Assembly (NCBI RefSeq): GCF_001699815.1
Contig: NZ_MCGB01000057.1
Location: 124,001 to 188,000, forward strand
Reading direction: 5' to 3'
DNA: 64,000 nucleotides
From: Ralstonia pickettii
Lineage (GTDB): Bacteria; Pseudomonadota; Gammaproteobacteria; Burkholderiales; Burkholderiaceae
The notes below the pieces were generated by a model. That model was not told the origin of the DNA and did no database searches. It saw only the letters and a list, made by a program, of their open reading frames with translations. Positions 7,504-39,370 of this stretch are shown piece after piece. The translations under genes were made by a program, and so were the position numbers. Each line of letters starts with the position of its first letter. Within the stretch, counting starts at the first letter, position 1.

Positions 7504-7607
7504 GTTGGCGCCCCACCATGCCGGGCGTGCATTGTGCTTTCCGTGCAGCACGGGTCGCGCGATAATGCATCGTCAATACAAGCCGTCATCAGACTGGAGA
7601 AACAAGG

Positions 7608-8003: not shown

Positions 8004-8028
8004 GCCTAATCGCTTGATCGCCTAATCA

Positions 8029-9752: not shown

Positions 9753-9787
9753 CCTCCAACCCTCCCCCTCTCCTGCTCTACACAAAG

Positions 9788-9812
9788 AACCGGCCTGAAG
9801 CGCCGGTTTTTT
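9788..9812 (+). terminator. Rho-independent terminator after lpxO
   Basis: Stem AACCGGC/GCCGGTT followed by a T-run. The rest of the 9753-10064 gap holds no gene; it should contain the promoter of the lipoprotein gene at 10065. Confidence 0.8.
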
Positions 9813-10064
9813 GTTGCGCATGAAAAAGCTACTCGCATTGCAGTCGGCTTGCGTTTTTACAAAGCAGTGAAGCAAAAGCGCCACATGGGGCACAAATCTC
9901 GCCTAATGTCAGGAATTGAGCGCTCCGGCGCTTATGCGATATGGCGGGCACGCCGCTTGCTTTTCCTTGGCTGACACCCATGCTGATTGCACGGGACCGA
10001 GTCAGAGCGGGGACGCGTGTGCCTGTGTCCCTCGTCAACAACAAAGACAGTGAGATCGATCGCC

Positions 10065-25660: not shown

Positions 25661-25675
25661 CTGGCGGAGAGAGGG
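25661..25675. repeat. attL, left attachment core
   Basis: CTGGCGGAGAGAGGG, identical to 39279-39293. It is the displaced original 3' end of the tRNA-Ser gene. Confidence 0.85.
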
Positions 25676-25688
25676 TCCGCTAGCGCAG

Positions 25689-25818
25689 TGTCTCTGCATG
25701 TCTTGCATTGTCTCTGCAAACCGTTCTCACGCTTGGGTTTGCGGGATTGTATTGTCTCGGTACGTCTTGTCAGATACGATCAAATCGCCCAATTTATGGC
25801 GGGTTGGATGGCGGGTTG
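25689..25818. repeat. Candidate left integrase arm sites
   Basis: TGTCTCTGCA is repeated at 25689-25698 and 25709-25718, 20 bp apart. ATGGCGGGTTG is repeated at 25796-25806 and 25808-25818, 12 bp apart; the same 12-bp-spaced pair stands near the right end (39215-39237). This is the pattern of arm-type sites of tyrosine integrases. Confidence 0.55.
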
Positions 25819-25836
25819 ACGACAAGGGGGCAACAA

Positions 25837-27081
25837 ATGCCGAAGGTAGCGAAGGAGCTGGGCGCGCTTGCGGTCTCGCGCTTATCGACGCCGGGGATGC
25901 ACCCGGTAGGTAAGGTGGCCGGGCTGAATCTGCAAATCAGCAAAACCGGCGCGCGCTCTTGGATCTTGCGCGTTGTTGTCGGAGACCGCCGGCGCGAAAT
26001 TGGCCTTGGCCCTTATCCAGCAGTCAGCCTGAAGGAGGCTCACGCCAAGGCCCAGGCCGAGCGCGACAAGATTCGCGACGGCATTGATCCGGTGCTTGCG
26101 CGGCGCGAGGCGGAAAGCCGCATCAAGGCCAGCCAAGCGCTGGAGATGACATTCGCAGATGCCGCAGAGCGGTTCATTGCTGCTAAGTCGGCCGAATGGA
26201 AGAACGCTAAGCATGCAGCCCAGTGGACGGCGACCATCGAGCAATATGCCAAACCAATTATCGGCAGCGTGAATGTCCGGCATATCGGCCGTGAGCATGT
26301 CATGCAAGTGTTGGAGCCGATCTGGCGCACCAAAACCGAGACGGCATCTCGCCTGCGCGGGCGCATTGAAAGCGTTCTGGACTGGGCGAGGGTGCGGGGC
26401 TACCGGTCCGGTGAGAACCCGGCCGCCTGGCGCGGTAATCTGGATCAGCTTTTGCCGGCGCCGAACAAAACAAAGACCGTCCGGAACCATCCCGCTTTGC
26501 CCATCGAGCAAATGCACAGCTTCATGGCAACCCTTCGCAAGATCGACACGACGGGGGCACATTGCCTCGAATTTGCGATCCTCACGGCCGCCCGGTCTGG
26601 CGAGGCTAGGGGCGCCACGTGGAAGGAAATCGACTTCGACAAAGGCGTGTGGGCAGTCCCAGCCGATCGCATGAAGGCAAAGAAGGAGCATCGCGTTCCG
26701 CTGTCGGATGCTGCCGTTGATCTGCTGCGCAAGATGCCTCGCGTTGATGGCTGTGAGCTTGTGTTTCCCAGCCCGCGGGGGCGGCAACTCTCCGACATGA
26801 CGCTGTTGGCAATCATGCGCCGGTTGGCGTTGACCGCGACGCCGCACGGCTTTAGGTCGACATTCCGGGACTGGGCTGGCGAACATACCAATTTCCCTCG
26901 CGAGCTGGCCGAGGTTGCGCTGGCGCACGTGAAGGGGGACAAGTCGGAGGCTGCGTATTGGCGCGGAGATGTGTTAGAGCGCCGCCGCCGGATGATGAAT
27001 CACTGGGCCGAAGTCATTGCCAAGCCAATGCCACAGGGCGCCGTCATTCCGATGCGCGCGGCGGTGGAGGTCGCAGCATGA
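25837..27081 (+). CDS. Tyrosine recombinase (integrase) of the tRNA-Ser element
   Basis: A 414-aa integrase. Residues about 1-90 are the DUF4102 arm-binding domain (GLNLQISKTGARSWILR), about 105-205 the core-binding domain, about 220-390 the catalytic domain. Arg253 (AARSGEARG), His337 and Arg340 (PHGFR), His364 (LAHV) and nucleophile Tyr374 (AAYWRGD) are present. ATG 25837 was chosen over the longer frame because upstream sequence holds the repeats. It lies at the end of the element distal to the tRNA gene. Overlaps the next gene by ATGA. Confidence 0.92.
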   Translation: MPKVAKELGALAVSRLSTPGMHPVGKVAGLNLQISKTGARSWILRVVVGDRRREIGLGPYPAVSLKEAHAKAQAERDKIRDGIDPVLARREAESRIKASQALEMTFADAAERFIAAKSAEWKNAKHAAQWTATIEQYAKPIIGSVNVRHIGREHVMQVLEPIWRTKTETASRLRGRIESVLDWARVRGYRSGENPAAWRGNLDQLLPAPNKTKTVRNHPALPIEQMHSFMATLRKIDTTGAHCLEFAILTAARSGEARGATWKEIDFDKGVWAVPADRMKAKKEHRVPLSDAAVDLLRKMPRVDGCELVFPSPRGRQLSDMTLLAIMRRLALTATPHGFRSTFRDWAGEHTNFPRELAEVALAHVKGDKSEAAYWRGDVLERRRRMMNHWAEVIAKPMPQGAVIPMRAAVEVAA

Positions 27082-27638
27082 AGCCAAAGAAAACGCCGGA
27101 CCAAATCCGCCGGGAGTTCTGGGAGAAGCAGAAAAAGCGGACAGATGAATTAGTCGGCAATGGCCCGATCGCACAAATAGCGTATGCGCTTCACCAATCG
27201 GAAGCACCTTTGACGAGGTTCGAGGACTTGAAGCCCTATTCGGTAACGCTTGAAAAGGCGGCGAATATGGTCGACGTGGGCATGGGGGCGATGCGTGCAG
27301 CGGTTAATTCCCACAATGCCAGCAAGCCGCGCCCGAAGAAGAAACCTACGCACAAGAGCATCGTTCTAGACGCCATGCGATCTGCACAACGTGACGATAA
27401 GAGCTTCGACCAGTTCATCATCAGCGCTATTAACGCCGGTTACGACGGAATGAAGATGGAGCGCCTTACCGGGCAAGGCGAGCGCTATAGCATCTATTGT
27501 GATGCCATGATCCCGACTGACTTGGCCGAAGACGATGAACAAGCCATGGAAGGTGCCCGATTTGCTGCCACTGTAGAGCGCAGCCACAAGGCACTTGAAG
27601 GCTGGTGGACGGAGGCCAAAAAGCCGAAAAAATCCTGA
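27078..27638 (+). CDS. Hypothetical protein, 186 aa, coupled to the integrase
   Basis: Starts with ATGA overlapping the integrase stop, so it is translated with it. Highly charged N-terminus (MKPKKTPDQIRREFWEKQKK) and a long helical region; no cysteine pattern or membrane segment. Proteins in this position in related islands are often accessory to integration or excision, but that is inference. Unrecognised. Confidence 0.6.
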   Translation: MKPKKTPDQIRREFWEKQKKRTDELVGNGPIAQIAYALHQSEAPLTRFEDLKPYSVTLEKAANMVDVGMGAMRAAVNSHNASKPRPKKKPTHKSIVLDAMRSAQRDDKSFDQFIISAINAGYDGMKMERLTGQGERYSIYCDAMIPTDLAEDDEQAMEGARFAATVERSHKALEGWWTEAKKPKKS

Positions 27639-27675
27639 GTTAGCCGGTTAGCCAAGACCCCGTTCTTAAAGTCTG

Positions 27676-27701
27676 TTGACAGTGGGACAGCAAATTGTCC
27701 C
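27676..27701 (+). promoter_or_regulatory. Candidate promoter/operator of the alpA-like gene
   Basis: A consensus -35 hexamer TTGACA (27676-27681) is followed directly by the palindrome GGGACAGCAAATTGTCCC (27684-27701; arms GGGACA/TGTCCC). No clear -10 is visible. The 11-mer GGACAGCAAAT is shared with the alpA upstream region of the tRNA-Val element (2636-2646). Confidence 0.55.
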
Positions 27702-27733
27702 GCGAAACCCCGAAACATCGTGAAGGAGTTTCA

Positions 27734-27937
27734 ATGTCAACAGAAGCACGAGGGCGCGGCTTGCGCCCGGCGAAAGCCGCCGAACATATTGGTGTCGGTG
27801 TCAGTACCTTCTGGCGCTACGCCAAAACAATCCCCGACTTCCCGAAGCCGGTAAAGCTGTCGCCGCGCTGCACGATCTTTTTCGAGTCGCAGCTTAACGA
27901 TTGGCTTGCATCGCGCGCGGCCGCCCACAAGGCGTAA
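27734..27937 (+). CDS. AlpA-family transcriptional regulator
   Basis: A 67-aa winged-helix protein. LRPAKAAEHIGVGVSTFWRY is the helix-turn-helix, and PDFPKPVKLSPRCTIFFES the wing, typical of AlpA. ATG 27734 lies 7 bases after GAAGGAG. AlpA proteins switch integrase or excision in P4-like satellites. It is preceded by a palindromic operator. Confidence 0.85.
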   Translation: MSTEARGRGLRPAKAAEHIGVGVSTFWRYAKTIPDFPKPVKLSPRCTIFFESQLNDWLASRAAAHKA

Positions 27938-27947
27938 GGGGGCGCGC

Positions 27948-28352
27948 ATGGACAAAAAAAGAAAAGCCCGCCGAGGGGCGGGCATTCCTGGGTTGCCTGA
28001 GATTCGTGGCGGCGAATCGACGGCAGCAATCCAAAGCAAAGTACGAGCTTATTTTAGCGCGCTCCGCGCCTTCTGGAAAGCGGCCGGGATCGAAGTCGAT
28101 ACGGTTGACGGGGACGCCCAGCTCGCGCGCCTGGTGGCGATCCTGAGGGTTCAAGGTTCGCGCGGTCTTGGCTCGGTCGAGGGCCGCACTGCTGGCGGAA
28201 TGCTTCAGCTGCCGGCGCGCGTCTTTGACCTGAAGGCACGTGGTTACGAAATCATCTCATCCCGTGAATGGGCTTGGGGTGCTGACGGACTGCGTCACCC
28301 GAATACGGCGCGGTACACCCTGCTGAAAGAGCCGGGAGGCGCGAATGCATGA
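27948..28352 (+). CDS. Helix-turn-helix protein, replication-module type
   Basis: A 134-aa basic protein. Residues about 60-115 (LARLVAILRVQGSRGLGSVE, then LPARVFDLKARGYEI) resemble the HTH_39 winged helix found in phage and island proteins beside replication genes. ATG 27948 follows AAGGGGG. It overlaps the next gene by ATGA, so the two probably act together. Exact role unknown. Confidence 0.65.
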   Translation: MDKKRKARRGAGIPGLPEIRGGESTAAIQSKVRAYFSALRAFWKAAGIEVDTVDGDAQLARLVAILRVQGSRGLGSVEGRTAGGMLQLPARVFDLKARGYEIISSREWAWGADGLRHPNTARYTLLKEPGGANA

Positions 28353-29112
28353 CCAAAGCCTCTCGAAAGAATCGCTATGGCGCGTCGAGCCGCGATGCCG
28401 GCGGCTTTGTGCCGATTCCATGGGCCGTCCTGGACAGCTCCGCCTATCAAGGTCTATCACATCCAGCGAAAGCCCTGCTTGTCGAGATAGCGAGGCAGTT
28501 TCACGGCAACGACAACGGTCGGATGATCGTGACGCTCGCGTATCTCAAGCCGCGCGGTTGGTCGTCCTACGACACGATACAGCGGGCCAAGCAGGAGTTA
28601 TTGGCCGCCGAACTCATCCACGAGACGTGCAAGGGGCACCGGCCGAATCGGGCGTCCTGGTACGCGGTGACGTGGTTGAGTCTGGACAAACTGGACGGCT
28701 ACGACGCGGGAGCTGCGGCCGGCTTTGTTCGGAGTGCGTATCTGAAAACGCAGCCCTTACACCGGGAGACGGTGTAGAGGCCGACCCTATTGCACCGGGA
28801 GACGGTGTAGAGGCCGTTTCCCCTACACCGCCAGACGGTGCAATGAAGGCCATTTTCTGGGACCTCTCTACACCGCCAGACGGTGACCCTCTAGATATGC
28901 CATCTCCCAGTGGTGTTCGGGGGTGTGCTCTTGAGGGTTTGAGGGCTCTGGAGGTGCGCGCGCCCGGAAACGCAAACGCCCAGCAATCGAGCACATGGCG
29001 GAGCCACCTTCCTCGCAAACGGCCTGCTGCCAAAGGCATGGCTGTTCGTGTGGGCGGGCAACCCGCCATCCGACCCGCCAAAGGCGCGAACGTAAAGGGA
29101 GGCGACCAATGA
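28349..29112 (+). pseudogene. Replication-type helix-turn-helix protein, interrupted by a frameshift
   Basis: The first frame (28349-28777, 142 aa) encodes a winged-helix protein (GGFVPIPWAVLDSSAYQGLS, then HPAKALLVEIARQF) of the type found in phage and plasmid replication modules. It stops at 28777. A second frame, one base back, continues without stop to 29112 and encodes repeats of PGDGVEA/PPDGA followed by LDMPSPS. That frame ends in an ATGA overlap with the next gene, as do its neighbours, so it appears to be the true C-terminus. A one-base loss near the A-run at about 28745, or programmed slippage, would explain it. Confidence 0.55.
28758..28887. repeat. Four tandem imperfect dyads, candidate replication origin
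   Basis: Copies at 28758-28776 (TACACCGGGAGACGGTGTA), 28791-28809, 28824-28842 and 28869-28887, with periods 33, 33 and 45. Arms TACACC/GGTGTA are perfect in copy 1. All periods are multiples of three, so the repeats also encode a PGDG-type peptide repeat. Iteron-like position beside a replication-type gene. Confidence 0.6.
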
Positions 29113-29474
29113 GCGAACTCCAAACCGATTCCGACGCATGGGCGGCCATCGTGGGCACGCTGGCGAGCGCCCCACATCGCGCACGTACCGGACTGACTAT
29201 GCGTGCCAAGTTGGACGCAATCGACGCGAAGGGACGAGAGGTCAAGGTCCGGCTCGTCATCCGGCGCGGCCAAGCATTCGACCAGATGGTCGACCTTCAG
29301 CCTGGAGATCGGGTGCGCGTCATTGGCAAGCTTGCTGTACCGGATGCCGGCGACGAGGAAGCGACCTCGCATCTTTGGTTGGATGTTGACAGCGCAATGC
29401 GGCTGGGCGCCGAACCCATCGCGCACCCTTCACGTATCAGCCGCTTCATCAAACGACTCTTCACGACTACCTAA
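29109..29474 (+). CDS. Hypothetical protein, OB-fold-like
   Basis: A 121-aa protein whose start overlaps the preceding frame by ATGA. The middle (AKLDAIDAKGREVKVRLVIR, then LQPGDRVRVIGKL) looks like the strand pattern of an OB-fold single-strand-binding domain; this is a pattern-based guess. A basic tail (RISRFIKRLF) follows. Consistent with a DNA replication or repair helper in the module 27948-30629. Confidence 0.55.
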   Translation: MSELQTDSDAWAAIVGTLASAPHRARTGLTMRAKLDAIDAKGREVKVRLVIRRGQAFDQMVDLQPGDRVRVIGKLAVPDAGDEEATSHLWLDVDSAMRLGAEPIAHPSRISRFIKRLFTTT

Positions 29475-29483
29475 GGAGCCCAC

Positions 29484-29627
29484 ATGGCATCCCCCGTTTT
29501 CAAAATCACGGCCTCGACCGGCACGGTCTTGGTCAACAACTTGCCGTACTACGCCTGCTGGCAAATTTTGCAGCTCTTGCAATACGAATGGAACTTGCAG
29601 GGGCTGACGCTCCAGGTGGGCCCGTAA
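29484..29627 (+). CDS. Small hypothetical protein, 47 aa
   Basis: ATG 29484 lies 6 bases after AAGGAG. The product (MASPVFKITASTGTVLVNNL and on) ends with a short tryptophan-containing helix. It sits in a tight operon, 9 bases after the previous stop and one base before the next ATG. Function unknown. Confidence 0.55.
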   Translation: MASPVFKITASTGTVLVNNLPYYACWQILQLLQYEWNLQGLTLQVGP

Positions 29628-29628
29628 C

Positions 29629-30456
29629 ATGATCGACTCTACCGATTTTCAAATCGTTGACAGCACCGGCCGCGCGCACCACACCGGACTAACTGCTGGG
29701 CAGGCTGACGGCCTGATGAAGCTCATGCTTGCGTCCGGAAAGTTCGCGGCACTCCGCATCGAGCGTATGGGCGCCGCTATCGCACCGGTGGCAGCCACGC
29801 AGGCGCCGCCCATCGTGGCGATAGCAAGCCCTACGCCGCTGCCTGGTGGCGACGTTCGGCAAGCACTACGCACAGCCATCGAGGCGCGTGACGAGGCCGC
29901 TAGAAGGCTCGCAGACGCGAGCAACGCGGTCGGCCGCGCCACCACCCATCAAGACGAGCAAAAAGCCAGCCACGCGGCCGCTACGGTCTCTCATGAGGCT
30001 GCGGTTCGAGCGGCCGGCGCAACCCTCGCCGCGACGTTCAAGGCTGGCGATGCTCTGCCGGCAAGCCGAGCTGCGATCGATCGCGCCGAACTCGCGAACG
30101 CGGAATCGCGATTGTCTGCCGCGTCTGCTGCGCTGGACATGCTGCAAGCCGAGCACGCCGAAGCAGAGCGGCAACTTGAGACGGCTGAAGCTGCCGTCAC
30201 TGCCGCTGTCCTGGCTGTCAAGCGCGCCGAAGTCGAGGTGCTGGTGGGCCGTCTGGAAGGGCTGAAAGCCGAGTTCATCGAGCTGGCTGGCCGTGTTGAC
30301 GGGGCCGGTTTCGCTGGCGTCGTGCTGAATGCACGCGCACAAGCGGCTCTGCACTGTGAGGCCAATGCAGGCGATGCAAGCGCCCACGCGGCGCGGTGGC
30401 ACTCGTACACGCGGACTCTACGTGAAAACGCTGATGCTGCCTGGGAGGCGCAATGA
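29629..30456 (+). CDS. Coiled-coil hypothetical protein, 275 aa
   Basis: The N-terminal 70 residues form a small domain; from about residue 80 to 230 the protein is an alanine-, glutamate- and arginine-rich coiled coil (EARDEAARRLADASNAVGRA, AEAERQLETAEAAVTAAVLA). Such proteins can be structural or chromatin-associated, but no family is recognised. Translationally linked to the small ORFs on both sides (next start overlaps by ATGA). Confidence 0.6.
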   Translation: MIDSTDFQIVDSTGRAHHTGLTAGQADGLMKLMLASGKFAALRIERMGAAIAPVAATQAPPIVAIASPTPLPGGDVRQALRTAIEARDEAARRLADASNAVGRATTHQDEQKASHAAATVSHEAAVRAAGATLAATFKAGDALPASRAAIDRAELANAESRLSAASAALDMLQAEHAEAERQLETAEAAVTAAVLAVKRAEVEVLVGRLEGLKAEFIELAGRVDGAGFAGVVLNARAQAALHCEANAGDASAHAARWHSYTRTLRENADAAWEAQ

Positions 30457-30629
30457 AGACAGCTCGCAAATTCACGTGTGACGCACTGATCCGGCGCGCC
30501 GTAGCCAAACGGAAGGCGGCCACGCGGAAGCCCGATGCGGCCACCGTCGACGCCAAGTCCGCAACGCAGCCCGTCGACCTGAACGAGATCCATCGGCGCT
30601 TCTGGGCGAAGCTGGCCGGCAAGGAATAG
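30453..30629 (+). CDS. Small basic hypothetical protein, 58 aa
   Basis: ATGA overlap with the preceding gene. Lysine/arginine-rich N-terminal half (LIRRAVAKRKAATRKPDAAT) and an acidic-aromatic end (DLNEIHRRFWAKLAGKE). Last gene of the replication-like operon. Unknown. Confidence 0.5.
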   Translation: MKTARKFTCDALIRRAVAKRKAATRKPDAATVDAKSATQPVDLNEIHRRFWAKLAGKE

Positions 30630-30756
30630 CGGATGTCCACGCGGATTAGTCGGTGAGTGCCGCATCCAGAGAAAACCCCGAAAGCCGGCGGCCGCATGGA
30701 AAGCGGCGTGGCCGGCAGCCAACTTTCAATGAGAGTTACCCAAAAGCGGCAAGGCC

Positions 30757-31251
30757 ATGGGCAAACACGGTTTCACCTCCATCGATCGCCACCATGCGCG
30801 CTTCTGGCGCGAACAGCAGAAGGCAGTTGCCAAGCTGCTGGAGGACGACTTTCTTATACGTGAAGCCCTTCTGGATATCGAAGACGAGGCAAGACGCCAA
30901 GTGCCGATTGCGTGCCGGAAATCGTTCGAGGCCGCCATGCTGGCTGCACGCGAGCGTGTGCAACGCACTATCGAGCGCCTAGAGGACGTCGACGAGGGCC
31001 CGAAGCGACTGTTTGGAGCAAGGCAACGCCGGTACGCCAGGCAATCGCGCAAGCGTGCTGAGAACCCGCTCGACCCCCTAATTCTTGAAATCCTTCGCCG
31101 ATCGCCAGACATGCCCGCAAAGGAGCTGCAGCGGCTCCTGGAAAGCGACCTTTATTTCGAAGAGCGAAGAGAGGCTGATTTGAAGCTACCGCTGACCGGC
31201 ATAGCGCAAAGGCGGTCACGAATACTGAAGAAACACATCCGCCCCGCCTAG
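30757..31251 (+). CDS. Hypothetical protein, 164 aa
   Basis: A helical, very basic protein (ARQRRYARQSRKRAENPLDP) with no membrane segment. The C-terminal third (DPLILEILRRSPDMPAKELQ) reads like a small helix-turn-helix. It stands alone between the replication-like operon and the tail genes. Could be a regulator; no family recognised. Confidence 0.5.
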   Translation: MGKHGFTSIDRHHARFWREQQKAVAKLLEDDFLIREALLDIEDEARRQVPIACRKSFEAAMLAARERVQRTIERLEDVDEGPKRLFGARQRRYARQSRKRAENPLDPLILEILRRSPDMPAKELQRLLESDLYFEERREADLKLPLTGIAQRRSRILKKHIRPA

Positions 31252-31399
31252 GAGCCTCGGCGCCCATTTTTCCCGGATAGCCGGCTACATGAAAAAACAC
31301 ACGATCCAATAGCGTTCAGGTTGAGTCAACAGCGAACAATGCACAGCAGGCGCAGCAATCTCGCTCAACCGGCGCCCAGCTAGTTGCACGAGAGAGCAA

Positions 31400-31693
31400 A
31401 TGACAAACGCAATATCGAGCGACGGCATTGCCGCGACGCTCAAGCACTTCGACGAGCTGCCGGACTCGGCGCATGTCGACACCGATGTCGTGGCGGCAAT
31501 TTTTGGCTGCTCCATCTCCACCGTGCGCCGCCGCGTGAAGGCCGGCGAGTTGCCGGCACCTCAGAAGGTTGGGCACCTGACGCGATTCCGCGTTGGCGAC
31601 GTCCGCTTCGCCACGCAGAAGCTAACCCCGTTCACACTCGACGATCCCGAACGTGGATTTGACGCGGGCGCCCTTCATCGAGACGAGGAGTAA
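31400..31693 (+). CDS. Excisionase/MerR-like helix-turn-helix protein, 97 aa
   Basis: Residues about 25-75 (HVDTDVVAAIFGCSISTVRR, then PAPQKVGHLTRFRVGDVR) form the winged helix of DNA-binding excisionase-family proteins. It is followed after 2 bases by the tail-fibre gene, so it may control or be co-transcribed with the tail genes. Second AlpA-like protein of the element. Confidence 0.7.
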   Translation: MTNAISSDGIAATLKHFDELPDSAHVDTDVVAAIFGCSISTVRRRVKAGELPAPQKVGHLTRFRVGDVRFATQKLTPFTLDDPERGFDAGALHRDEE

Positions 31694-31695
31694 CA

Positions 31696-32622
31696 ATGGC
31701 AACGAATGATTTCCTCCCGTTCGCATATGGCGGCGGCGCAAACGTCCTTTCTCAAGCCGCATACGCTGCGCTCACGACGCTTCTGTCTGGCGGCTATCAG
31801 TCGGGCGTCGCGCAATCGAGCCAGATGAACAAGACCTTGCGCCAGAGTTCGATCATGGCGGCTGTGCTGGGCCAATTCGCCGCGGACTACTCCGGCAACA
31901 ACTCGACCGATGACGGCACAACGGCAACGCTCGAGGCCAACCTTGTTGCCGCCATCCGTAGCGCGACGAAAACGAGCGTGATCCTCGCCGATACCGGTGC
32001 AGCGAATGCGTACACGGCCGTCAACGCGCCCCCGCTCGTCGCCGGCACATGGGTGGACGGCGTGGTTCAGCAGGTCAAGATCGCGCATGCCAACACTGGC
32101 GCATCGACATATGCACCAGATGGCCTGACGGCGATTCCGATCTACGGCCTCGGCCTGCAACCTCTGCAAGGCGGCGAACTTGCGCTCAACGGCACTGCAG
32201 TGCTCATGCGCGCGACCATCGCCGGCGTGAACAGTGGCAATCCTATCGCGGTGCTCATGGAATGCGCAGGAGGGGCACAGCAAGTCGCCCCCGCCACGGC
32301 CAGCCAGCATGCGGTGAATCTGGGCCAGTTCGGCGCCTCGATCGGTGCCAACGGTTATCAGAAATTGCCGAACGGTCTGATCGTGCAATGGGGGGCTGGC
32401 ACAGGATCGACTTCAGGCGCTGTTTCTGTGGCCTACCCAATTGCGTTTCCCAGTGCCGTGTATTCCGTCGTCGCACTTGACACCAACAGCGCGTCCGCCT
32501 CCGGTTCGGCGCGCGTCGGTGCGATTTCAACGACCGGATTTTCCATTTCCACTTCCTACTACAACGGAAGCGGACTCACCTATTACGCGGACGGCTTCAA
32601 CTGGATCGCAATCGGCAAGTAA
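31696..32622 (+). CDS. Phage tail fibre protein with gp53-like C-terminal domain
   Basis: A 308-aa protein. The N-terminus (MATNDFLPFAYGGGANVLSQ) is the baseplate-attachment region seen in Burkholderia/Ralstonia myophage fibres; the C-terminal about 90 residues (GYQKLPNGLIVQWGAGTGST, then TTGFSISTSYYNGSG) form the putative receptor-binding domain. Such proteins determine host range. It is the first of a tail cluster that lacks any tube, sheath or tape-measure gene nearby. Ribosome-binding site GAGGAG precedes ATG 31696. Confidence 0.8.
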   Translation: MATNDFLPFAYGGGANVLSQAAYAALTTLLSGGYQSGVAQSSQMNKTLRQSSIMAAVLGQFAADYSGNNSTDDGTTATLEANLVAAIRSATKTSVILADTGAANAYTAVNAPPLVAGTWVDGVVQQVKIAHANTGASTYAPDGLTAIPIYGLGLQPLQGGELALNGTAVLMRATIAGVNSGNPIAVLMECAGGAQQVAPATASQHAVNLGQFGASIGANGYQKLPNGLIVQWGAGTGSTSGAVSVAYPIAFPSAVYSVVALDTNSASASGSARVGAISTTGFSISTSYYNGSGLTYYADGFNWIAIGK

Positions 32623-32630
32623 GGAACATC

Positions 32631-33053
32631 ATGGCCCAAAAATTCGCAGCATACGACGCACAAGGCGTCATCACCGCCTTTTACGACAGCGTAGACAGCC
32701 CTGTGCCGGCGGGCATTACCAACACCCTTGCGATCACCGATGCGCAGTGGCAGGCGTGTATCAGCACTTCTGGGTACAAGGTAGTGAGCGGTGCGCTGGT
32801 GGCGCCCCCGGCTACGACTGCCGCGCAACTCGCAGGTCAAGCGACGGCGGCCGCATGGTCAGCATTCCAGGTCAAAGCCCAGGCCGCGCTTGATAAGTCG
32901 GACATCACCATCCTGAGATGCACCGAGAACGCTGTTGCGGTGCCTGCGGCATGGGCTACTTATCGTAAGGCATTGCGCGCGATCGTGGGCGCATCGTCTG
33001 GCGACGCGACTCAGCCTCTGCCGACGCAGCCAGCATATCCGGCTGGCACCTGA
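32631..33053 (+). CDS. Tail-fibre-assembly-like protein
   Basis: A 140-aa protein 9 bases after the fibre gene with a good ribosome-binding site (AAGGAA). The opening (QKFAAYDAQGVITAFYDSVD) and the tail region with LDKSDITILRCTENAVAVP are typical of phage tail-fibre assembly/XkdW-like proteins that follow fibre genes. Probably a chaperone for fibre trimerisation or attachment. A terminator follows at 33067. Confidence 0.65.
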   Translation: MAQKFAAYDAQGVITAFYDSVDSPVPAGITNTLAITDAQWQACISTSGYKVVSGALVAPPATTAAQLAGQATAAAWSAFQVKAQAALDKSDITILRCTENAVAVPAAWATYRKALRAIVGASSGDATQPLPTQPAYPAGT

Positions 33054-33066
33054 GCGACTTACGCAG

Positions 33067-33088
33067 GCCCGCCTCAGGCGGGCTTTTT
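33067..33088 (+). terminator. Rho-independent terminator after the fibre genes
   Basis: Stem GCCCGCC/GGCGGGC with loop TCA and five T residues. Confidence 0.85.
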
Positions 33089-33122
33089 CACGGCGGCAAC
33101 CGTACAAAACCTGACATCAAGG

Positions 33123-33749
33123 ATGTTCATGAGCAACTTTCTGCAAACCGGCGTCGCGATCGGGGCATCGATCGGCGGTGAACTCATCAGCGCCTTTTTC
33201 AGCCCGAAGCGGTCCATCAATTCTCAGCTCGGCTCGTTTCATCTGTATGTGACTCTGGAAGAGCGGCATCACGACGAACTAGTGATTACCGATCATCCAG
33301 TCGAGCAGGGTGCCGCGATCACGGATCACTCATACAAGAAGCCTGCCGAACTGACGATGACGATCGGCTGGTCGAATAGCAACCTTGCTTCGATCGCATC
33401 GCTTCAGTTCGGCAACTACTCGCGCAGTACGTACAACGATCTGTTGACGCTTCAGAAGTCTCGCATCCCATTCAATATTTCGACCGGGAAACGGAAGTAC
33501 AGCAACATGCTGATCCAGTCGTTGAGCACGACGACGGATGCGAAGACGGAAAACTCGCTGATCGTCACGCTGAACTGTCGTGAGGTCATCATCGTCCAGA
33601 CGACGACCACGCAGTTGCAGCCGGCGGCGAATATGACCAATCCGCAAAAGACGGCACCGATCGTAAACACTGGAGTGAAGCAACCGCAGGCCACGACAAC
33701 TAGCCTGGCCTATCGAGTGGCGAAAGTCATCACCGGACAAACGCAATGA
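33123..33749 (+). CDS. Phage baseplate protein, Dit-like N-terminal domain
   Basis: A 208-aa protein; ATG 33123 or the in-frame ATG 33129, which suits AAGGA better. The block HHDELVITDHPVEQGAAITD and KPAELTMTIGWSNS matches Dit-like phage baseplate hub proteins of long-tailed phages. The C-terminal half is a threonine- and proline-rich segment, less conserved. Its separation from a full tail operon is unusual; it is transcribed after a terminator, presumably from its own promoter. Confidence 0.7.
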   Translation: MFMSNFLQTGVAIGASIGGELISAFFSPKRSINSQLGSFHLYVTLEERHHDELVITDHPVEQGAAITDHSYKKPAELTMTIGWSNSNLASIASLQFGNYSRSTYNDLLTLQKSRIPFNISTGKRKYSNMLIQSLSTTTDAKTENSLIVTLNCREVIIVQTTTTQLQPAANMTNPQKTAPIVNTGVKQPQATTTSLAYRVAKVITGQTQ

Positions 33750-33811
33750 GACTGCGAGCTATCAGCGCCGTACCTGAGGTCATCATCGGCTGATAAAACA
33801 AGGAAAGAACA

Positions 33812-34216
33812 GTGGCGTTTCAGAAAGGAAAGTCGGGTAATCCGAAGGGCCGCCCGCGCGGCACAGGCAAAGTCGCAGCGCTGCGCGAGCAGATAGCGGA
33901 ACATGTGCCGAGCATTGTTAAGGGCTTGATCGACGCCGCACTGGCTGGCGACATGCAGGCCGCAAGGCTGCTGCTGGACCGTGCTCTGCCTCCACTGCGT
34001 GCGGAAGATGGCGCGGTCACGATCAACATGCCTGCCGGTGGCTCGCTGTCCGACCAAGGTGATGCAATCGTGAAGGCCGCTGCTGACGGGCGAATCACGC
34101 CCGCCCAGGCTAATGCCATGACGACCGCGCTTAGTTCGCTGGCACGCATCCGCGAGGTGACCGAGCTCGAATCGCGAATCGAAGCACTGGAGGCGGCAAA
34201 TGCGCAATCTCAGTAA
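33812..34216 (+). CDS. DUF5681-domain protein, phage packaging-associated
   Basis: A 134-aa protein from GTG 33812 (after AAGGAAAGAAC). The hallmark SGNPKGRPRG (about residues 8-17) is the DUF5681 signature, a domain often encoded beside phage terminase genes. The C-terminal part forms a coiled coil (RIREVTELESRIEALEAANA). It overlaps the next small gene. A role in DNA recognition for packaging is inference from context in other phages. Confidence 0.75.
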   Translation: MAFQKGKSGNPKGRPRGTGKVAALREQIAEHVPSIVKGLIDAALAGDMQAARLLLDRALPPLRAEDGAVTINMPAGGSLSDQGDAIVKAAADGRITPAQANAMTTALSSLARIREVTELESRIEALEAANAQSQ

Positions 34217-34379
34217 CCGGGTGGCGAAGCTGGAGCAATCCAGCACAGGTGACTATGTGGAGGTCATGCCGATCGAGTGGTTCTACGGCGATCGGGACGC
34301 CAAGCCGATACGGATGACGCGCCAGGAATTTCAGGGCCGGACGCTGGACGACTTTTATCGCGAGGAGGGTCAGTCATGA
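34200..34379 (+). CDS. Small hypothetical phage protein, 59 aa
   Basis: ATG 34200 overlaps the DUF5681 gene; the stop overlaps the next ATG at 34376. Sequence begins MRNLSNRVAKLEQSSTGDYV, a short coiled coil, and ends in a charged tail. Small genes of this kind stand in the packaging region of related phages. Unknown function. Confidence 0.6.
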   Translation: MRNLSNRVAKLEQSSTGDYVEVMPIEWFYGDRDAKPIRMTRQEFQGRTLDDFYREEGQS

Positions 34380-34729
34380 CGACCGCGCTGCGGAAACGGC
34401 TGGCCGCGCTGGAAGTCGCGAAGCCGGCTCAGGCCAGTTCTTGCCTAGAGGAAGCTATCAGACGCATCCACGATGCGCTGTATGCCTCGCTGCGGTCCGA
34501 CCCTGGTATGCAGGTGCCGAGCCCGATTTACTCACACGCCTACGGCACGGTCGGCTACGTCTCGTCTCGTACGAAGGTACTGGAGCTTGGCCAGCGGCTG
34601 CGCGAAGGGACCGAGACAGCCGACGATATCGCCGTACTCGACGCGCTGCCCGCCGATGCTCTCGCCGTTGCTCGAATCGATGCGAGGGGCTTCGTGGAGA
34701 TGATTCTTAGCTTGGAAGAGCGATTCTAG
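34376..34729 (+). CDS. Hypothetical phage protein, 117 aa
   Basis: Starts with an ATGA overlap. N-terminus MTTALRKRLAALEVAKPAQA is another short coiled coil; the rest is helical and acidic (LREGTETADDIAVLDALPAD). It completes a three-gene coupled block with DUF5681. No function recognised. Followed by the first cluster of GTACGAAA words. Confidence 0.6.
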   Translation: MTTALRKRLAALEVAKPAQASSCLEEAIRRIHDALYASLRSDPGMQVPSPIYSHAYGTVGYVSSRTKVLELGQRLREGTETADDIAVLDALPADALAVARIDARGFVEMILSLEERF

Positions 34730-34875
34730 CCGCGGGCGTTGCTCGCGCTGCCTAAAGGGGGCTAACTGGCCCGCCTCTTTGATACTTCGCAATACGTCCT
34801 GCGAAGCAACCCGCGAAGTGACGCCTATCGCCCGCCGATGCCGTGGCCATCATCGGCGCCCAAGCTTGCTCTGGC

Positions 34876-34980
34876 TGTACGAAACTGAGGTACGAAGGTT
34901 CGCCCATGTACAAAAGCTGCTTGGCCTAGTTTCGTACACAGCTGCCGGATGGGTCCGTAACCGGTCGGTTTCGTACATCA
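34876..34980. repeat. Candidate res site A (GTACGAAA/TTTCGTAC words)
   Basis: TGTACGAAACT (34876-34886) and AGTTTCGTACA (34928-34938) are perfect 11-bp inverted repeats; further copies are GTACGAA at about 34890 and TTTCGTACATC at 34969-34979. The same word set stands upstream of the serine recombinase (37613-37708). The surrounding gap 34730-35033 contains no gene. Confidence 0.55.
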
Positions 34981-35033
34981 TCAATTCATACAAACTTGCA
35001 CAGGGCCGCGCCGCCCAAGAACGGGAGAAGAAC

Positions 35034-35894
35034 ATGAAGAAGTTTGCGGTTCTAGCTGCGATCTCGGTCTCTCTGTCTGCCGGCGCCGGTCAGTTCGCTG
35101 CCGATCCGGTAGGCATGGAATATCTGCACCGGGTTATCCGTGACGACATTGATGTGTTTCAGAGTGGCGGCAGATCGATGTTCACTTGGGCGGCACTGAC
35201 AGATGGCCCGTTCACGCCATCTGCGCAGAAAGAAGCCGACAGGGCAATTGACGCTTGGTTCGCGGGAGAGAGGCCACCCCCAGGCTTCACGTCTGCCGTC
35301 GATCACGGTGACATCCTTCTATTTCAGATGTATTGGGTCGGGACCAAGTTACCGAAAAACTGCACCAAAGATTCAACTGCAAGCGGATGTGAAGAGCAAA
35401 TGCAGGCGGCAATGCGCAAGGCTCAATTCGGCGATGCGGATTTCATGACGGCATACAACGACGCGCGCGGGCCGTTGCATCTATCGACTTTCTTTCCTGA
35501 GGTCGAGAGGAGCGCCGACGTCGGCCATCCGCAGCGCTCGCCGCTACCGCTCCCTCATCCCCAAGCACTCGCAAACTCTGATCGCCGATGCGACGACCTC
35601 GCATTTTCCTCCGGCGATAAACGGCTTGGCGAAACATGCAAACGCCGTAACCACCGCGGCCTCGATGAATTGTCGGGAATGCAGAACGACCCTGAGATCC
35701 GGGTCGAATTTTGGTCGGCCTGTAATCAGGCAGTTGGGTTTAGCGTATCGACAGAGTACTCAGGCTGGGCAAAGTGCGTTCGGTTCGTGCGAAAGTCATG
35801 CCCTGCTTCGAAGATTCATTCTGACGATGATATACGTCGCTGCCTACGTGCAATCCAAAGCGACGGCTGGATCTTGAACTCATCGTCAAATTAA
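35034..35894 (+). CDS. Exported hypothetical protein, 286 aa (cargo)
   Basis: ATG 35034 lies after CGGGAGAAG. The N-terminus MKKFAVLAAISVSLSAGAGQ is a Sec signal peptide, so the product is periplasmic or secreted. Cysteines are numerous, suggesting disulfides. The region about residues 148-195 is proline/histidine/arginine-rich and looks out of frame, so two compensating frameshifts are possible. It lies between the two candidate res sites and is not phage-like; no family recognised. Confidence 0.5.
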   Translation: MKKFAVLAAISVSLSAGAGQFAADPVGMEYLHRVIRDDIDVFQSGGRSMFTWAALTDGPFTPSAQKEADRAIDAWFAGERPPPGFTSAVDHGDILLFQMYWVGTKLPKNCTKDSTASGCEEQMQAAMRKAQFGDADFMTAYNDARGPLHLSTFFPEVERSADVGHPQRSPLPLPHPQALANSDRRCDDLAFSSGDKRLGETCKRRNHRGLDELSGMQNDPEIRVEFWSACNQAVGFSVSTEYSGWAKCVRFVRKSCPASKIHSDDDIRRCLRAIQSDGWILNSSSN

Positions 35895-35983
35895 GGCGAA
35901 CGGGCGGCGCCGGCTAGTCGAGTTGCCACGAGAGGCTCGGGCAATGCTCGCGTTGCTTCGGGGCGACTGACTGGAGATGCGAT

Positions 35984-36277
35984 ATGAAATCCTGCCTACT
36001 CCTGCTGGCCGCCCAGTTCGACGGCCGAGTGCTGTTGACCCTGGAGGAGGTGTGCGACGCTATCGCCATCCAGAAGCAGACGGCCTATAACCGGCTGTCG
36101 ATGGGTTCATTCCCGATCCCGATGCGCAAGGAGGGCCGCAACCTCGTTGGCGACATCCGGGACGTGGCCGACTACCTCGACGCGCAGCGCGAGGCGGCCA
36201 GGCAGGAGCACGAGAAGATGAAAAACCTGATCCGGCGCGATGAGACGGCGCCGCAGATGAAGGCGCGCGCGACATGA
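35984..36277 (+). CDS. Helix-turn-helix protein, PrtN/excisionase-like, 97 aa
   Basis: Residues about 10-60 (RVLLTLEEVCDAIAIQKQTA, then MGSFPIPMRKEGRN) form a winged helix of the pyocin-activator/excisionase type; the C-terminal third is a charged helix. Third such protein of the element. Preceded by GGAGATGCG. Confidence 0.65.
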   Translation: MKSCLLLLAAQFDGRVLLTLEEVCDAIAIQKQTAYNRLSMGSFPIPMRKEGRNLVGDIRDVADYLDAQREAARQEHEKMKNLIRRDETAPQMKARAT

Positions 36278-36499
36278 GGACCCCTCCGACCGTGTCGGCC
36301 TGTCACTAGGAGGGATTGTAGATCCCGATATCGTACTTGTGGTGCAAAGGACTGCCTTTCTGGAAGGCGTCCGAGGTGATTGCTTGGACCGAGGGGCACC
36401 GGGATAAGGTCATTGGGCGCCCACGGAAGACGGATTGAGGAGCCAAGTCATTTTCTGGCTGAACCACAGCGTCAGCGCTGGACAACGGAGGTAGGGCAA

Positions 36500-36829
36500 A
36501 TGAAAGCAAGGAAGGCGGTCCTTGATTCAATGACACCGATCTATGTCGATCCCTCGGCGTCCTCCGACGTCTCAAACCTCTCCCCAGCTGGCCTGACGGT
36601 CGGCATCAAGGGGGCGGCGGAAATTCTTCACATTCACCCCAATACGGTTGTGGACCTGATCACGAATGGCCAGATCCCGGCGGCAAAGGTTGGTCGCGCC
36701 TGGGTGATGATGACGCGCGACGTGCTTGCTTACGTTGAAAGGCTCATCATCGCGCAGACGGCCGAGCGCTTGGTTGCCACTGGTCGCCCGCAGCCCACCA
36801 GCGTGTCACGGCGACGTCGGCGTTTCTAG
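36500..36829 (+). CDS. Excisionase-family DNA-binding protein, 109 aa
   Basis: The segment LTVGIKGAAEILHIHPNTVV followed by GQIPAAKVGRAWVMMTRDVL is the classic excisionase-family helix-turn-helix and wing. A basic tail (SVSRRRRRF) ends the protein. ATG 36500 follows GGAGGTAGGG. Fourth AlpA/excisionase-like gene in the element. Confidence 0.75.
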   Translation: MKARKAVLDSMTPIYVDPSASSDVSNLSPAGLTVGIKGAAEILHIHPNTVVDLITNGQIPAAKVGRAWVMMTRDVLAYVERLIIAQTAERLVATGRPQPTSVSRRRRRF

Positions 36830-36867
36830 GGTTCGGAGCCGCTCTCTTGTGCTCGGGAGAGCCGTAA

Positions 36868-37143
36868 GAGAAAGCCGCGCCGGACTGGGAGCGCATTGAG
36901 GCGGAATACCGGGCCGGCGTTTTGTCGATCCGGGAAATTGCCGCTCAGCACGGAATTACCGATACTGCGATCCGCAAGCGCGCAGCCCGAGATGGTTGGG
37001 CACGGGATCTCAGCAAACGCATACAGGACAAGGCCGAAGCGCTGGTTCGCACGGCTGAGGTTCGCAGTCAGGTTCGCACGGAAAGCGCGAACTCGGATCG
37101 CCTCATTGTTGAGGCTAACGGCGAGGGGTACGCGCAATGCTGA
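36868..37143 (+). pseudogene. Small terminase (TerS)-like fragment without a start codon
   Basis: The open frame after the stop at 36865-36867 encodes DWERIEAEYRAGVLSIREIA followed by HGITDTAIRKRAARDGW, a pattern typical of the N-terminal DNA-binding domain of phage small terminase subunits. No ATG or GTG precedes it; the only candidate is an internal TTG at 36922, which would cut off the first helix. The C-terminal oligomerisation part is also missing. Probably a decayed packaging gene. Confidence 0.6.
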
Positions 37144-37466
37144 TCGCAGTTTTGACCGCCGACCAGGTGGCGGAAGCTCTGGGATGCACGCCGGAGCATG
37201 TCAATGCGCTCGCCGCCTCCCGCAACCTTCCGGCCGTGAAGTTCGGAAGATCATGGAGATTTCCAGCCGCCGCCCTTGCGCGTTTCCTGGATGAGCAGGC
37301 TACGGCCAACCTGACTTTACCTGTTCAGCATATACAGGCCGTCCAGCCCATAAAGGCGACGAAGCGAGGCAAGCCCCTCCCCGACCTTATGCGCGCTGCG
37401 CGTGAGGCAGGTCTACCCATAAGCGATCAGCTAAGTCTGAGCCACGGGGTGACACGTACCACATGA
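37137..37466 (+). CDS. Excisionase-family DNA-binding protein, 109 aa
   Basis: Residues about 5-50 (LTADQVAEALGCTPEHVNAL, then NLPAVKFGRSWRFPAAALAR) are a textbook excisionase helix-turn-helix and wing. It overlaps the TerS-like fragment by 7 bases. Fifth gene of this class in the element; its nearness to the recombinase gene may mean it directs recombination or represses that promoter. Confidence 0.75.
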   Translation: MLIAVLTADQVAEALGCTPEHVNALAASRNLPAVKFGRSWRFPAAALARFLDEQATANLTLPVQHIQAVQPIKATKRGKPLPDLMRAAREAGLPISDQLSLSHGVTRTT

Positions 37467-37612
37467 ACGCTCGGGGGCTCTTATGCCCTGGGACGTGTTG
37501 GGCTATGCAGAGAAGCTCATCATCGATTAGACCGATGAGCGGCTAGCCACCCCGTGGGGCAGCTCCATTGCCAAAGAGCGCTGCGTGCTGATGGGCGGCA
37601 CATGTACGAAAA

Positions 37613-37708
37613 CGAACGATTGCGGCCCCGTGTGGCTAGATGTGTACGAAATTTGTGATTGACTTATTTCGTACGTATCGTATTATCCGTACATCGTCTA
37701 CGTACATC
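37613..37708. repeat. Candidate res site B upstream of the serine recombinase
   Basis: GTACGAAA at 37614-37621; the inverted pair GTACGAAAT (37644-37652)/ATTTCGTAC (37666-37674) spans 31 bp, the size of a res subsite; then CCGTACATC and CGTACATC near 37688-37708. Lies in the gene-free stretch 37467-37723, directly upstream of the recombinase start. Confidence 0.6.
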
Positions 37709-37723
37709 CAAGGAGGTCCAGGC

Positions 37724-38314
37724 ATGTCCCGCATCTTCGCTTACTGCCGCGTGAGCACCACTGATCAGACAACCGAAAACCAGCGTCGTGAGATCGAAGC
37801 GGCAGGCTTCTCCGTCGACAAGCGGCGCATCGTCGAAGAGTCGATTAGCGGATCTGTCGGAGCAATGGACCGCCCGGGCTTTGCGAAGCTGGTGGACCGA
37901 CTGGAATCTGGTGACGTGCTGATAGTCACGAAGATGGACCGGCTGGGGCGCAATGCGATGGACGTGCGAGCAACGGTCGAGCGACTGGCGGGCATCGGCG
38001 TACGCGTTCACTGTCTTGCGCTTGGTGGAGTCGACCTGACCAGTCCAGCCGGCAAGATGACCATGGGCGTGATCTGTGCCGTTGCCGAGTTTGAGCGTGA
38101 TCTCTTGATTGAGCGCACGCAATCTGGCTTGGCTCGAGTGAAGGCTGCAGGAAAGGTTTTGGGCCGAAAGCCGTCACTTTCTGATGACCAGCAGCGGGAC
38201 GTCCTTAAGAAGCTCGCGGCCGGCGTCAGCGTGGCGCAGGTAGCCCGAGACATGAAAACGACGCGCCAGACCATCATGCGCGTGCGCGCAGCCGCCGAGG
38301 TCGATACGAAATAA
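37724..38314 (+). CDS. Serine recombinase (resolvase/invertase family)
   Basis: A 196-aa recombinase. The catalytic domain begins [20 protein letters not shown] with nucleophile Ser11 and contains [13 protein letters not shown] and the [16 protein letters not shown] helix E; residues about 145-190 form the HTH_7 DNA-binding domain ([20 protein letters not shown]). Full length for a small resolvase or invertase. ATG 37724 follows AAGGAGG. The upstream GTACGAAA repeats look like its recombination site. Confidence 0.9.
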
Positions 38315-38407
38315 CCCGACGCCTGACGGTATCAGGCAAAGCGGCGGCCAAGGTGCTGCAACACCAAAGCCGCCTAATCACAACCCAAGCTACAAAGGAG
38401 CTGGACC

Positions 38408-38671
38408 ATGACTAACATCAATCTTACCCCCCGCGCTATCGGTGCCGATGAAGGCGAGGCGCCAGAGATTAAGCTAAGACAGCTCGCCAGCGACTATGAG
38501 GCTGGGGAGATTGAGGGGCTCCTCGTCGCGTACGTGATGGGTGACGGGGAAGTGAAGTACAAGTTGATGGGGGCGCTCGCCGAGAAGGAGAACCTCCTCA
38601 ACGCAGCGGCCATCGCCGGCGAACTCAAGAAGAGGACCGAGATTCTCTGGGTACTGGAAGGGGGGGTGTGA
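38408..38671 (+). CDS. Hypothetical protein, 87 aa
   Basis: Good ribosome-binding site (AAAGGAG) before ATG 38408. An acidic helical protein (KLRQLASDYEAGEIEGLLVA) ending in hydrophobic residues, with no known motif. Small proteins like this occur near the ends of prophages. Unknown. Confidence 0.5.
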   Translation: MTNINLTPRAIGADEGEAPEIKLRQLASDYEAGEIEGLLVAYVMGDGEVKYKLMGALAEKENLLNAAAIAGELKKRTEILWVLEGGV

Positions 38672-38672
38672 G

Positions 38673-38912
38673 ATGTACCCAGAGAAAATGATCGACTTCC
38701 ACAAGTACGCCTACCTGTACGCATCCAAGCATGTCCTGCTTGGCGCCTTGGCTGTCCCACGGGACAGGCGCAGGACAGGTGCGGGACAGTCACGCAGTGT
38801 CACGACCTGTCACGCGGGACGGGTGCGCGCCGTGTCCGCTTTTTGTCCGCATCGTCTGCGGACTGATTGCGGACATCCAAAGGCTATGCGGATGCCTTCC
38901 AGGAGGGCTTGA
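38673..38912 (+). CDS. Doubtful small ORF
   Basis: Begins one base after the preceding stop (MYPEKMIDFHKYAYLYASKH), which looks protein-like for about 28 codons; the remainder runs through the GGACAG repeat array and is arginine-rich and of unlikely coding character. Possibly only the first part was ever a gene. Confidence 0.25.
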   Translation: MYPEKMIDFHKYAYLYASKHVLLGALAVPRDRRRTGAGQSRSVTTCHAGRVRAVSAFCPHRLRTDCGHPKAMRMPSRRA

Positions 38913-39054
38913 GGGAAGGTCGCGCCGTGCTCTAACGGTGTCCTAACTGTTAGGGCACGGTGCCTACAGGGTATAGAAGGCTCGCGAACATTCGCGAACC
39001 TTCTGCGGCGCGTCTGGAAATCCGATGGAAGCCCCTTGCTAGCACCTTGCTAGC
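38752..39054. repeat. Repeat-dense right end: palindromes, 11-bp-phased repeats, direct repeats
   Basis: CTGTCCCACGGGACAG (38752-38767) starts a run in which GGACAG recurs every 11 bp (38762, 38773, 38784). A hairpin follows at 38925-38960 (CCGTGC and GCACGG outer arms, CTAAC/GTTAG inner). Then a 30-bp imperfect palindrome 38975-39004 (AGAAGG, TCGCGAA / TTCGCGA, CCTTCT) and the direct repeat CCTTGCTAGC at 39034-39043 and 39045-39054. No gene lies in 38913-39279. Candidate origin, packaging or recombination region. Confidence 0.6.
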
Positions 39055-39214
39055 CCCCCGGTAGTCCCTAGGCAGTCCCCGCGGACACCGAAGATCGGAA
39101 GAGCTTCATCCAAAATCGGAAGCACTCGATCCTGCCTGAATGGAAACCGTGTGGAAACCCAGTGGGTTTTTCTTGGGATTGGCCTATCGTTGCGCCTTGG
39201 CAACATTTGGCGTG

Positions 39215-39237
39215 ATGGTGGGTTGTATGGCGGGTTG
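39215..39237. repeat. Candidate right integrase arm sites
   Basis: ATGGTGGGTTG (39215-39225) and ATGGCGGGTTG (39227-39237), the same 12-bp-spaced pair as at 25796-25818, in the same orientation, 42 bp inside the right attachment core. Confidence 0.55.
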
Positions 39238-39278
39238 ATCTTGTCGATCGACCGCAAACCCTTACTATATAAGGAAGA

Positions 39279-39293
39279 CTGGCGGAGAGAGGG
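39279..39293. repeat. attR, right attachment core within tRNA-Ser
   Basis: CTGGCGGAGAGAGGG, identical to 25661-25675. The tRNA gene remains intact because the element supplies its 3' end. Confidence 0.85.
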
Positions 39294-39370
39294 GGATTCG
39301 AACCCCCGATAGGTTATTAACCTATACACGCTTTCCAGGCGTGCGACTTAAACCACTCATCCATCTCTCC
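39280..39370 (-). tRNA. tRNA-Ser(GGA)
   Basis: A 91-nt tRNA with acceptor GGAGAGA/TCTCTCC, anticodon loop CTGGAAA (anticodon GGA), a long variable arm (TATAGGTTAATAACCTATC region), T-loop GGTTCGAATCC and an encoded CCA. It reads TCC. Its 3' end is the integration target of the 13.6-kb element, which now separates it from the terminator at 25622-25654. Confidence 0.95.

Follow-up and report, generated by a model that had tools for sequence, protein, structure and literature searches.

We analysed a 64,000-nucleotide stretch of Ralstonia pickettii DNA (contig NZ_MCGB01000057.1, positions 124,001 to 188,000; hereafter the window) that carries an integrated element of 13.6 kb, positions 25661-39293, inserted in the 3' end of a tRNA-Ser(GGA) gene. 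The initial annotation of this DNA had proposed a phage satellite equipped with host-recognition tail genes. Open reading frames (ORFs) were assigned with PHROGs and Pfam, 23 window ORFs being scanned against PHROGs and 20 with both. The features are given below together with their similarity to four sister elements of 14.3-16.6 kb, which lie in two Paraburkholderia sp. (BL25I1N1, also G224, and BL9I2N2) and in genomes G273 and G376 of the same family.

25661..25675, no strand: attL core CTGGCGGAGAGAGGG, with an identical copy at 39279-39293 and empty sites in other genomes
25795..25819, no strand: putative integrase arm sites, two ATGGCGGGTTG-type repeats, direct repeat with 39215-39238; a similar pair lies upstream of the integrase in the four sister elements
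25837..27081, + strand: tyrosine integrase with arm-binding domain (PF00589/PF13356/PF22022), 64-72% identical to sister elements
27078..27638, + strand: hypothetical protein, ~30% to an ORF at the same place in BL25I1N1
27734..27937, + strand: AlpA-like excisionase/regulator (PF05930 above cut-off), 83-86% to BL9I2N2 and BL25I1N1, 57% to G376
27906..28352, + strand: HTH_39 winged-helix protein, start uncertain (PF14090, E 7e-10)
28349..28777, + strand: Rep-like replication protein (weak match to a PHROG of replication initiation, E 0.0012), 34% to 'replication protein O' of vB_Pae_U1
28760..28885, no strand: origin-like iterons, 4 x CACCGNNAGACGGTG, spacing 33-33-45
29109..29474, + strand: g28995, conserved core protein, fold unassigned; 4 strong matches in 398 family genomes, own included
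29629..30456, + strand: g29629, conserved core protein, 37-41% to sister elements
30453..30629, + strand: small conserved ORF, 68% to the G273 element
31400..31693, + strand: HTH17a regulator (PF12728), 2 bases before the fibre gene
31696..32622, + strand: tail fibre with gp53-like C-terminus (phrog_11303, E 7e-47; PF21882); N-terminal 211 amino acids (aa) up to 91% to viral contigs
32631..33053, + strand: fibre-assembly/chaperone-like protein (phrog_4912, E 3e-5, weak)
33129..33749, + strand: Dit-like baseplate protein (PF21821, E 2.4e-37; best PHROG phrog_817, E 5.4e-51), 86% to locus L092
33812..34216, + strand: DUF5681 protein (PF18932), 61% to the BL25I1N1 element
34277..34729, + strand: hypothetical protein, 48% to the BL25I1N1 element
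35034..35894, + strand: protein whose start resembles a signal peptide (by eye), distant relatives in phage loci
35984..36277, + strand: excisionase/PrtN-like protein (phrog_1300, E 2e-11)
36500..36829, + strand: HTH_17 excisionase-like protein (Pfam)
36922..37143, + strand: TerS N-terminal fragment (phrog_1206, positions 21-90 of 207), no in-frame ATG/GTG upstream
37137..37466, + strand: HTH_17 excisionase-like protein (Pfam)
37724..38314, + strand: serine resolvase/invertase (PF00239)
38341..39196, no strand: right end, made up of ORF 38408-38671 and non-coding DNA rich in repeats; 80-93% to L144 in blocks, 71-81% to L141
39279..39293, no strand: attR core, the second exact copy of CTGGCGGAGAGAGGG (15 bp), equal to the tRNA-Ser(GGA) 3' end

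The two exact 15-bp att repeats, which the initial annotation had taken as the bounds of the element, proved to be its ends. The right copy forms the 3' end of tRNA-Ser(GGA), located at 39280-39370 on the minus strand. By itself the repeat is weak (a 14-mer with up to three mismatches gave 6 matches against 8.45 expected, only these two copies being exact), and we take the boundaries as real because the empty sites are decisive: of 15 further genomes from the genus, four (G005, G008, G009 and G014) have the flanks abutting with an overlap of 14-15 bp. The remaining 11 have different arrangements or a single flank. Together, the att repeats, the empty sites and the integrase show site-specific integration by the element's own integrase, as expected of a phage satellite. 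At the same tRNA-Ser the flanks lie ~9-12 kb apart in G004, G006 and G013, around other islands; at these loci and that of G007 no element protein was matched, apart from one partial integrase match (G004). The 43 bases at 39280-39322 are identical to Xanthomonas phage PBR31 and may be the attP of PBR31 for this tRNA gene.

Across the 23 window ORFs scanned against PHROGs, no best match fell in a capsid, portal, large terminase, sheath, tube or holin family, in agreement with the absence of capsid, portal, large terminase and tube noted initially. As expected of a phage satellite, no head genes of its own were recognised, the sole match filed under head and packaging being a secondary one of the fibre (phrog_2557, 'virion structural protein', E 1.3e-16). 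Dit has a secondary match to phrog_1517 ('endolysin', E 6.9e-14) behind phrog_817. The integrase, AlpA, excisionase-like, fibre, Dit, DUF5681 and TerS genes named at the outset are all present by PHROGs or Pfam, and the fibre-assembly match is weak; the serine resolvase, the iterons, the arm-like repeats and a fibre-bearing locus elsewhere in the genome (L144) had been overlooked. The TerS gene lends little weight to the initial proposal, the copy being a fragment that has no in-frame ATG/GTG start and no match in sister loci; as a packaging switch it was dropped, and it is probably a relic.

To recover relatives, the Rep protein was used as query against 398 genomes of the family, where homologues occur in 30, own included, and 20 loci were fetched and compared. 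The g28995 protein was used against the same 398 genomes, 300 genomes of the order, and, by pattern scan, named genomes. At E 1e-3 it matched seven family genomes (the four strong matches listed above and three marginal ones) and, among the 300 of the order, only its own genome; at two loci with marginal matches, L222 and L223, no matching gene was found. The named-genome scan gave 96 pattern matches, of which two were confirmed (BL25I1N1 and BL9I2N2), and its sensitivity is limited, since it did not return the G376 and G273 sister elements. The five elements were thereby recovered through core genes, and tail genes were not used as bait.

Sizes computed from att positions are 13.6 kb for the window element, 14.25 kb for G376, 14.8 kb for BL9I2N2, 16.45 kb for G273 and 16.6 kb for BL25I1N1. 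All five have the att core in the 3' end of a tRNA-Ser gene, of the GGA type in three elements and TGA in the other two. The core is followed on the integrase side by TCCGC, with two arm-like repeats (ATGGCGGGT and a variant) before the integrase start. Common to the window element and its sisters are the integrase, the Rep-like gene, g28995, g29629 and HTH17a at the fibre slot; the full layout is seen in G224 and G376, and that of G273 spans two fetched pieces. A second Rep near the tRNA occurs in the four sisters and is missing from the window element. A search for the same gene order at other tRNA-Ser sites, as initially proposed, yields a conserved stand-alone form in four other genomes, with the same core and att layout, as expected of a phage satellite. 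Copies embedded in complete prophages with no stand-alone form would have spoken for a degraded prophage; we observed the opposite.

The core was not recovered from the phage collections searched. Neither g28995 nor g29629 was found in IMG/VR (pattern scan) or in 50,697 phage records (tblastn), and HTH17a had no match in those records nor in the comparison loci. Within these collections, and for prophages of bacterial genomes within the g28995 searches of 398 family and 300 order genomes, the core was not found in complete phages or prophages. Relatives of the integrase do occur in complete Acidovorax phages (48-50%), and Rep has one phage-record match, vB_Pae_U1 (PP003913.1, L229; 16.2 kb). 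Deposited as a complete phage, vB_Pae_U1 has integrase, cox-like, Rep-like, primase and Rhs genes and no annotated structural gene; the record looks like a satellite or island.

The replication module varies between elements. The window element, G376 and BL25I1N1 carry the same four iterons at and behind the end of Rep with the same 33-33-45 spacing, and the Rep proteins of these two sisters share 81-84% identity with the window Rep. In BL9I2N2, Rep is 45% identical and is accompanied by a different, palindromic iteron at 32-33-45. The L144 locus, in which Rep is oppositely oriented, has a third iteron type at 45-33. In BL9I2N2 the second Rep shares 65% identity with the L144 Rep and is accompanied by nearly the L144 iteron at 33-33. 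Iteron sequence thus tracks Rep type in four of the five elements while the spacing is mostly constant, which is the behaviour expected of an initiator and its origin.

HTH17a overlaps the fibre-slot gene or sits 2 bases from it in all five elements. Four carry a fibre of one N-terminal family in this slot; in G273 it is occupied by a protein of 710 aa with weak matches, and a fibre-like protein of 229 aa comes next. Dit occurs in three of the five and a baseplate hub (phrog_196, E 1e-57) in G273, the hub being confined to this element and the cousin locus L186. The tail-tip genes are open and preceded by sequences resembling ribosome-binding sites. Their order is HTH17a-fibre-chaperone, then Dit-DUF5681 in the window element; in the sisters Dit or hub (none in BL9I2N2) is followed by DUF5681 or an unrelated 219-270-aa ORF, and then by HTH17a-fibre. 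In phages, and in one prophage region read, Dit typically starts ~5 kb before the fibre.

Compared with viral contigs, the window Dit shows 86% identity and the fibre N-terminus up to 91%, and the phages that share them are ~60 kb in size with baseplate J and DUF3383 genes. Among nine such records, Baseplate_J is present in eight (seven of the eight that bear Dit) and DUF3383 in eight, namely all the Dit-bearing ones; we take DUF3383 to be the sheath of E217-like phages. The TerS piece is 60-63% to ORFs in two such records and matches at all in three of 13. A structure model of Dit (mean pLDDT 65) matches baseplate chains of the contractile phages Pam3, E217 and Pa193 with TM-scores of ~0.4-0.5, which indicate fold class only. 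Dit is under purifying selection, with nonsynonymous (dN) and synonymous (dS) rates of 0.083 and 0.59 for G376 against BL25I1N1, and of 0.095 and 0.89 for the window against L092; dS was saturated in many other comparisons. In the Dit tree G376 and BL25I1N1 are joined and the window protein lies elsewhere, both among phages, so at least two acquisitions or exchanges are required. No second Dit, as a sign of a helper, was found in the element's own genome.

Several features stand apart from these modules. The repeat-rich blocks at 38341-38412 and 38782-39196 in the right-end DNA are common to L144 and L141, the latter at the tRNA-Ser(TGA) of G001; this DNA had no match in phage records and may be an origin, packaging (cos/pac) or regulatory site. 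No invertible segment was identified for the serine resolvase at 37724-38314, and four small HTH proteins match TerS families weakly (E 0.014-0.047). Relatives of the 35034-35894 protein lie close behind Dit, on the opposite strand, in most of nine phage loci.

Cousin elements share parts of this layout. L144 (positions 1200-9900, G000:C74), in the same genome, carries an integrase, HTH39 and Rep. It also encodes a protein of 499 aa whose C-terminus belongs to a fibre family (E 2e-39), and blocks of its right-end DNA are 80-93% identical to the window element; att sites were looked for there and not found. G365 (G365:C1, L192 with L226), at a contig end, shares the integrase type (68%) and carries HTH17a, Rep, primase, helicase, DUF5681 and one spike-like protein (E 3e-6), preceded by a 383-aa protein of unknown PHROGs. 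G257 (L186) has HTH39, Rep, an ORF of the d_229 type and the hub; no related integrase was found in it. L224 (G271) contains an integrase, S24, AlpA, HTH39, primase, SSB-like and DUF5681 genes and a 698-aa protein of an unknown-function PHROG.

Taken together, we lean towards the view that the element is a putative phage satellite of a small family that supplies tail-tip parts to a helper's particle. The fuller proposal, that these satellites carry a replaceable module of fibre and Dit or hub which is built into the contractile tail of the helper, so that the satellite decides which cells are entered, we put forward more tentatively, at somewhat short of even chances. Judged by their families and the att structure, the integrase and the AlpA-like factors would excise the element from tRNA-Ser, and Rep may start replication by binding the iterons that lie where its gene ends. 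A contractile-tailed helper, of a kind to which the origin of Dit, fibre and the TerS relic points, would supply head, tube, sheath, packaging and lysis functions. HTH17a and the fibre would be made together, and the satellite's fibre, chaperone and Dit or hub would join the helper baseplate to give a chimeric tail with a satellite-set tip, on which the conserved fibre N-terminus might dock while the variable C-terminus picks the receptor.

The satellite proposal has to be weighed against several observations. Excision, helper, replication, packaging, chimeric tip and host choice are all predictions from the genes. No packaging gene is conserved: DUF5681 occurs in two of the five elements, an unrelated ORF (d_229/c_219) takes its place in the other three, DUF5681 is found in none of 13 candidate helper records (several of which are fragments), and TerS is a fragment, unmatched in the sisters. 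The classical sheath model PF04984 matched one of the nine phage records and none of the eight that bear Dit, so the contractility of the helper rests on DUF3383, with its presumed sheath role, and Baseplate_J. The element is rare, as the four strong g28995 matches attest. In the G273 element, where Rep is matched in part, the repeats are 20 nt long with a spacing of 22-22-32-82 and do not fit the iteron pattern. A structure model of g28995 from a three-sequence alignment was unusable (pLDDT 36), and its OB-fold-like look is an impression only.

Part of this evidence would suit a remnant of one or more prophages, left beside the tRNA gene after loss of the head and most tail genes, an origin that we consider rather unlikely. 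The TerS fragment, tail genes traceable to a recognisable phage type, the integrase relatives in Acidovorax phages and a gene order unlike that of phages all point this way, as do the five excisionase-like genes, which together with the shuffled tail modules suggest a composite. Such decay does not readily account for the recurrence of the layout in four other genomes, at a like site and with genes that are diverged and open, nor for a core that was not found in phage collections, and the selection on Dit and the retained match of Rep and iterons argue against it. The sister elements displaced a lone degraded prophage as our principal explanation, and with the open tail genes they favour a satellite, as first proposed. 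Should the tail genes of a satellite be passive cargo picked up from helpers, which of the explanations considered we find the hardest to credit, the repeated acquisitions or exchanges of Dit would be expected. So would the lack of both Dit and hub in BL9I2N2 and the 15 of 20 Rep loci (L179, L181-L185, L187-L189, L191 and L193-L197) in which no Dit, no hub and no fibre of this N-terminal family was seen; Rep alone is therefore no predictor of tail genes. Integrase, AlpA, HTH39 or weak HTH17a matches occur in several of these 15; L179, which lies at a contig edge, carries a d_229-type ORF as well (L200). Cargo would not explain why the fibre-slot gene is coupled to a family-specific regulator in every element, why Dit is under purifying selection, or why the structural genes that recur are those of the tail tip. 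It is also improbable, in our estimation, that a satellite or island uses Dit and fibre as decoys against incoming phages, whose tail assembly they would disrupt. Precedent exists in Tai and Rta, satellite-borne defences that target tail assembly according to excerpts of PMC11364771 and PMC12987554, and a Dit-like protein sits at the baseplate core. Yet the tail genes match their phage counterparts over nearly the whole length and have a chaperone-like gene alongside, and a decoy does not need a receptor-binding C-terminus. PADLOC, which covers known systems, returned for 10 element proteins one weak methyltransferase match, in BL25I1N1 (L178).

Among known satellites, P4 integrates in tRNA genes, and PICIs redirect packaging, for instance via an intact TerS; the element has a TerS fragment and DUF5681. 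Like P4-like satellites, as described in excerpts of PMC8628076, the element combines an integrase and AlpA with an absence of head genes; it differs in its tail-tip genes, and no match to Psu, Sid, delta or alpha was found in 20 window ORFs with Pfam and PHROGs. It resembles PICMIs (excerpts of PMC10803314) in int, AlpA, a reduced gene set and the absence of a capsid-remodelling gene, but PICMIs insert at fis rather than tRNA-Ser, the tail genes set it apart, and of the int, alpA and primase combination the primase had no match in the window ORFs. Some cf-PICIs carry putative tape-measure genes, according to a figure legend in PMC12987554; they form their own capsids, whereas no capsid gene was found here. 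MiniFlayer is a satellite with a tail fibre gene, but from the excerpted PMC10690885 it encodes its own encapsidation machinery and is without key replication genes, the reverse of the window element. Among the matches listed in the open-licence literature, none described a satellite family that lacks head genes and carries a fibre with Dit or hub, preprints and most subscription papers being outside this scope.

By description, the closest known system would be the PLEs of Vibrio cholerae. In the excerpts of PMC12987554 (2026), well characterised satellites hijack phage tails, and PLEs are called the first family known to mix in internal tail proteins of their own, forming chimeric tails with their own tape measure, tail chaperone and hub. 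As in the window family, an integrated satellite there encodes part of a contractile tail, with a hub in some PLE variants. The difference lies in the parts: tape measure, tail chaperone and hub in PLEs, against fibre, fibre chaperone and Dit or hub here, where no tail chaperone of the PLE kind was found and the only tape-measure match was at noise level (34779-35894, phrog_19915, E 0.026). If the proposal is true, it could explain satellites that reach hosts their helpers do not, and its concrete gene set, site and origin can now be tested in the named Paraburkholderia strains. With the receptor-binding end among its genes, the family would then stand as a second, separate case beside the PLEs.

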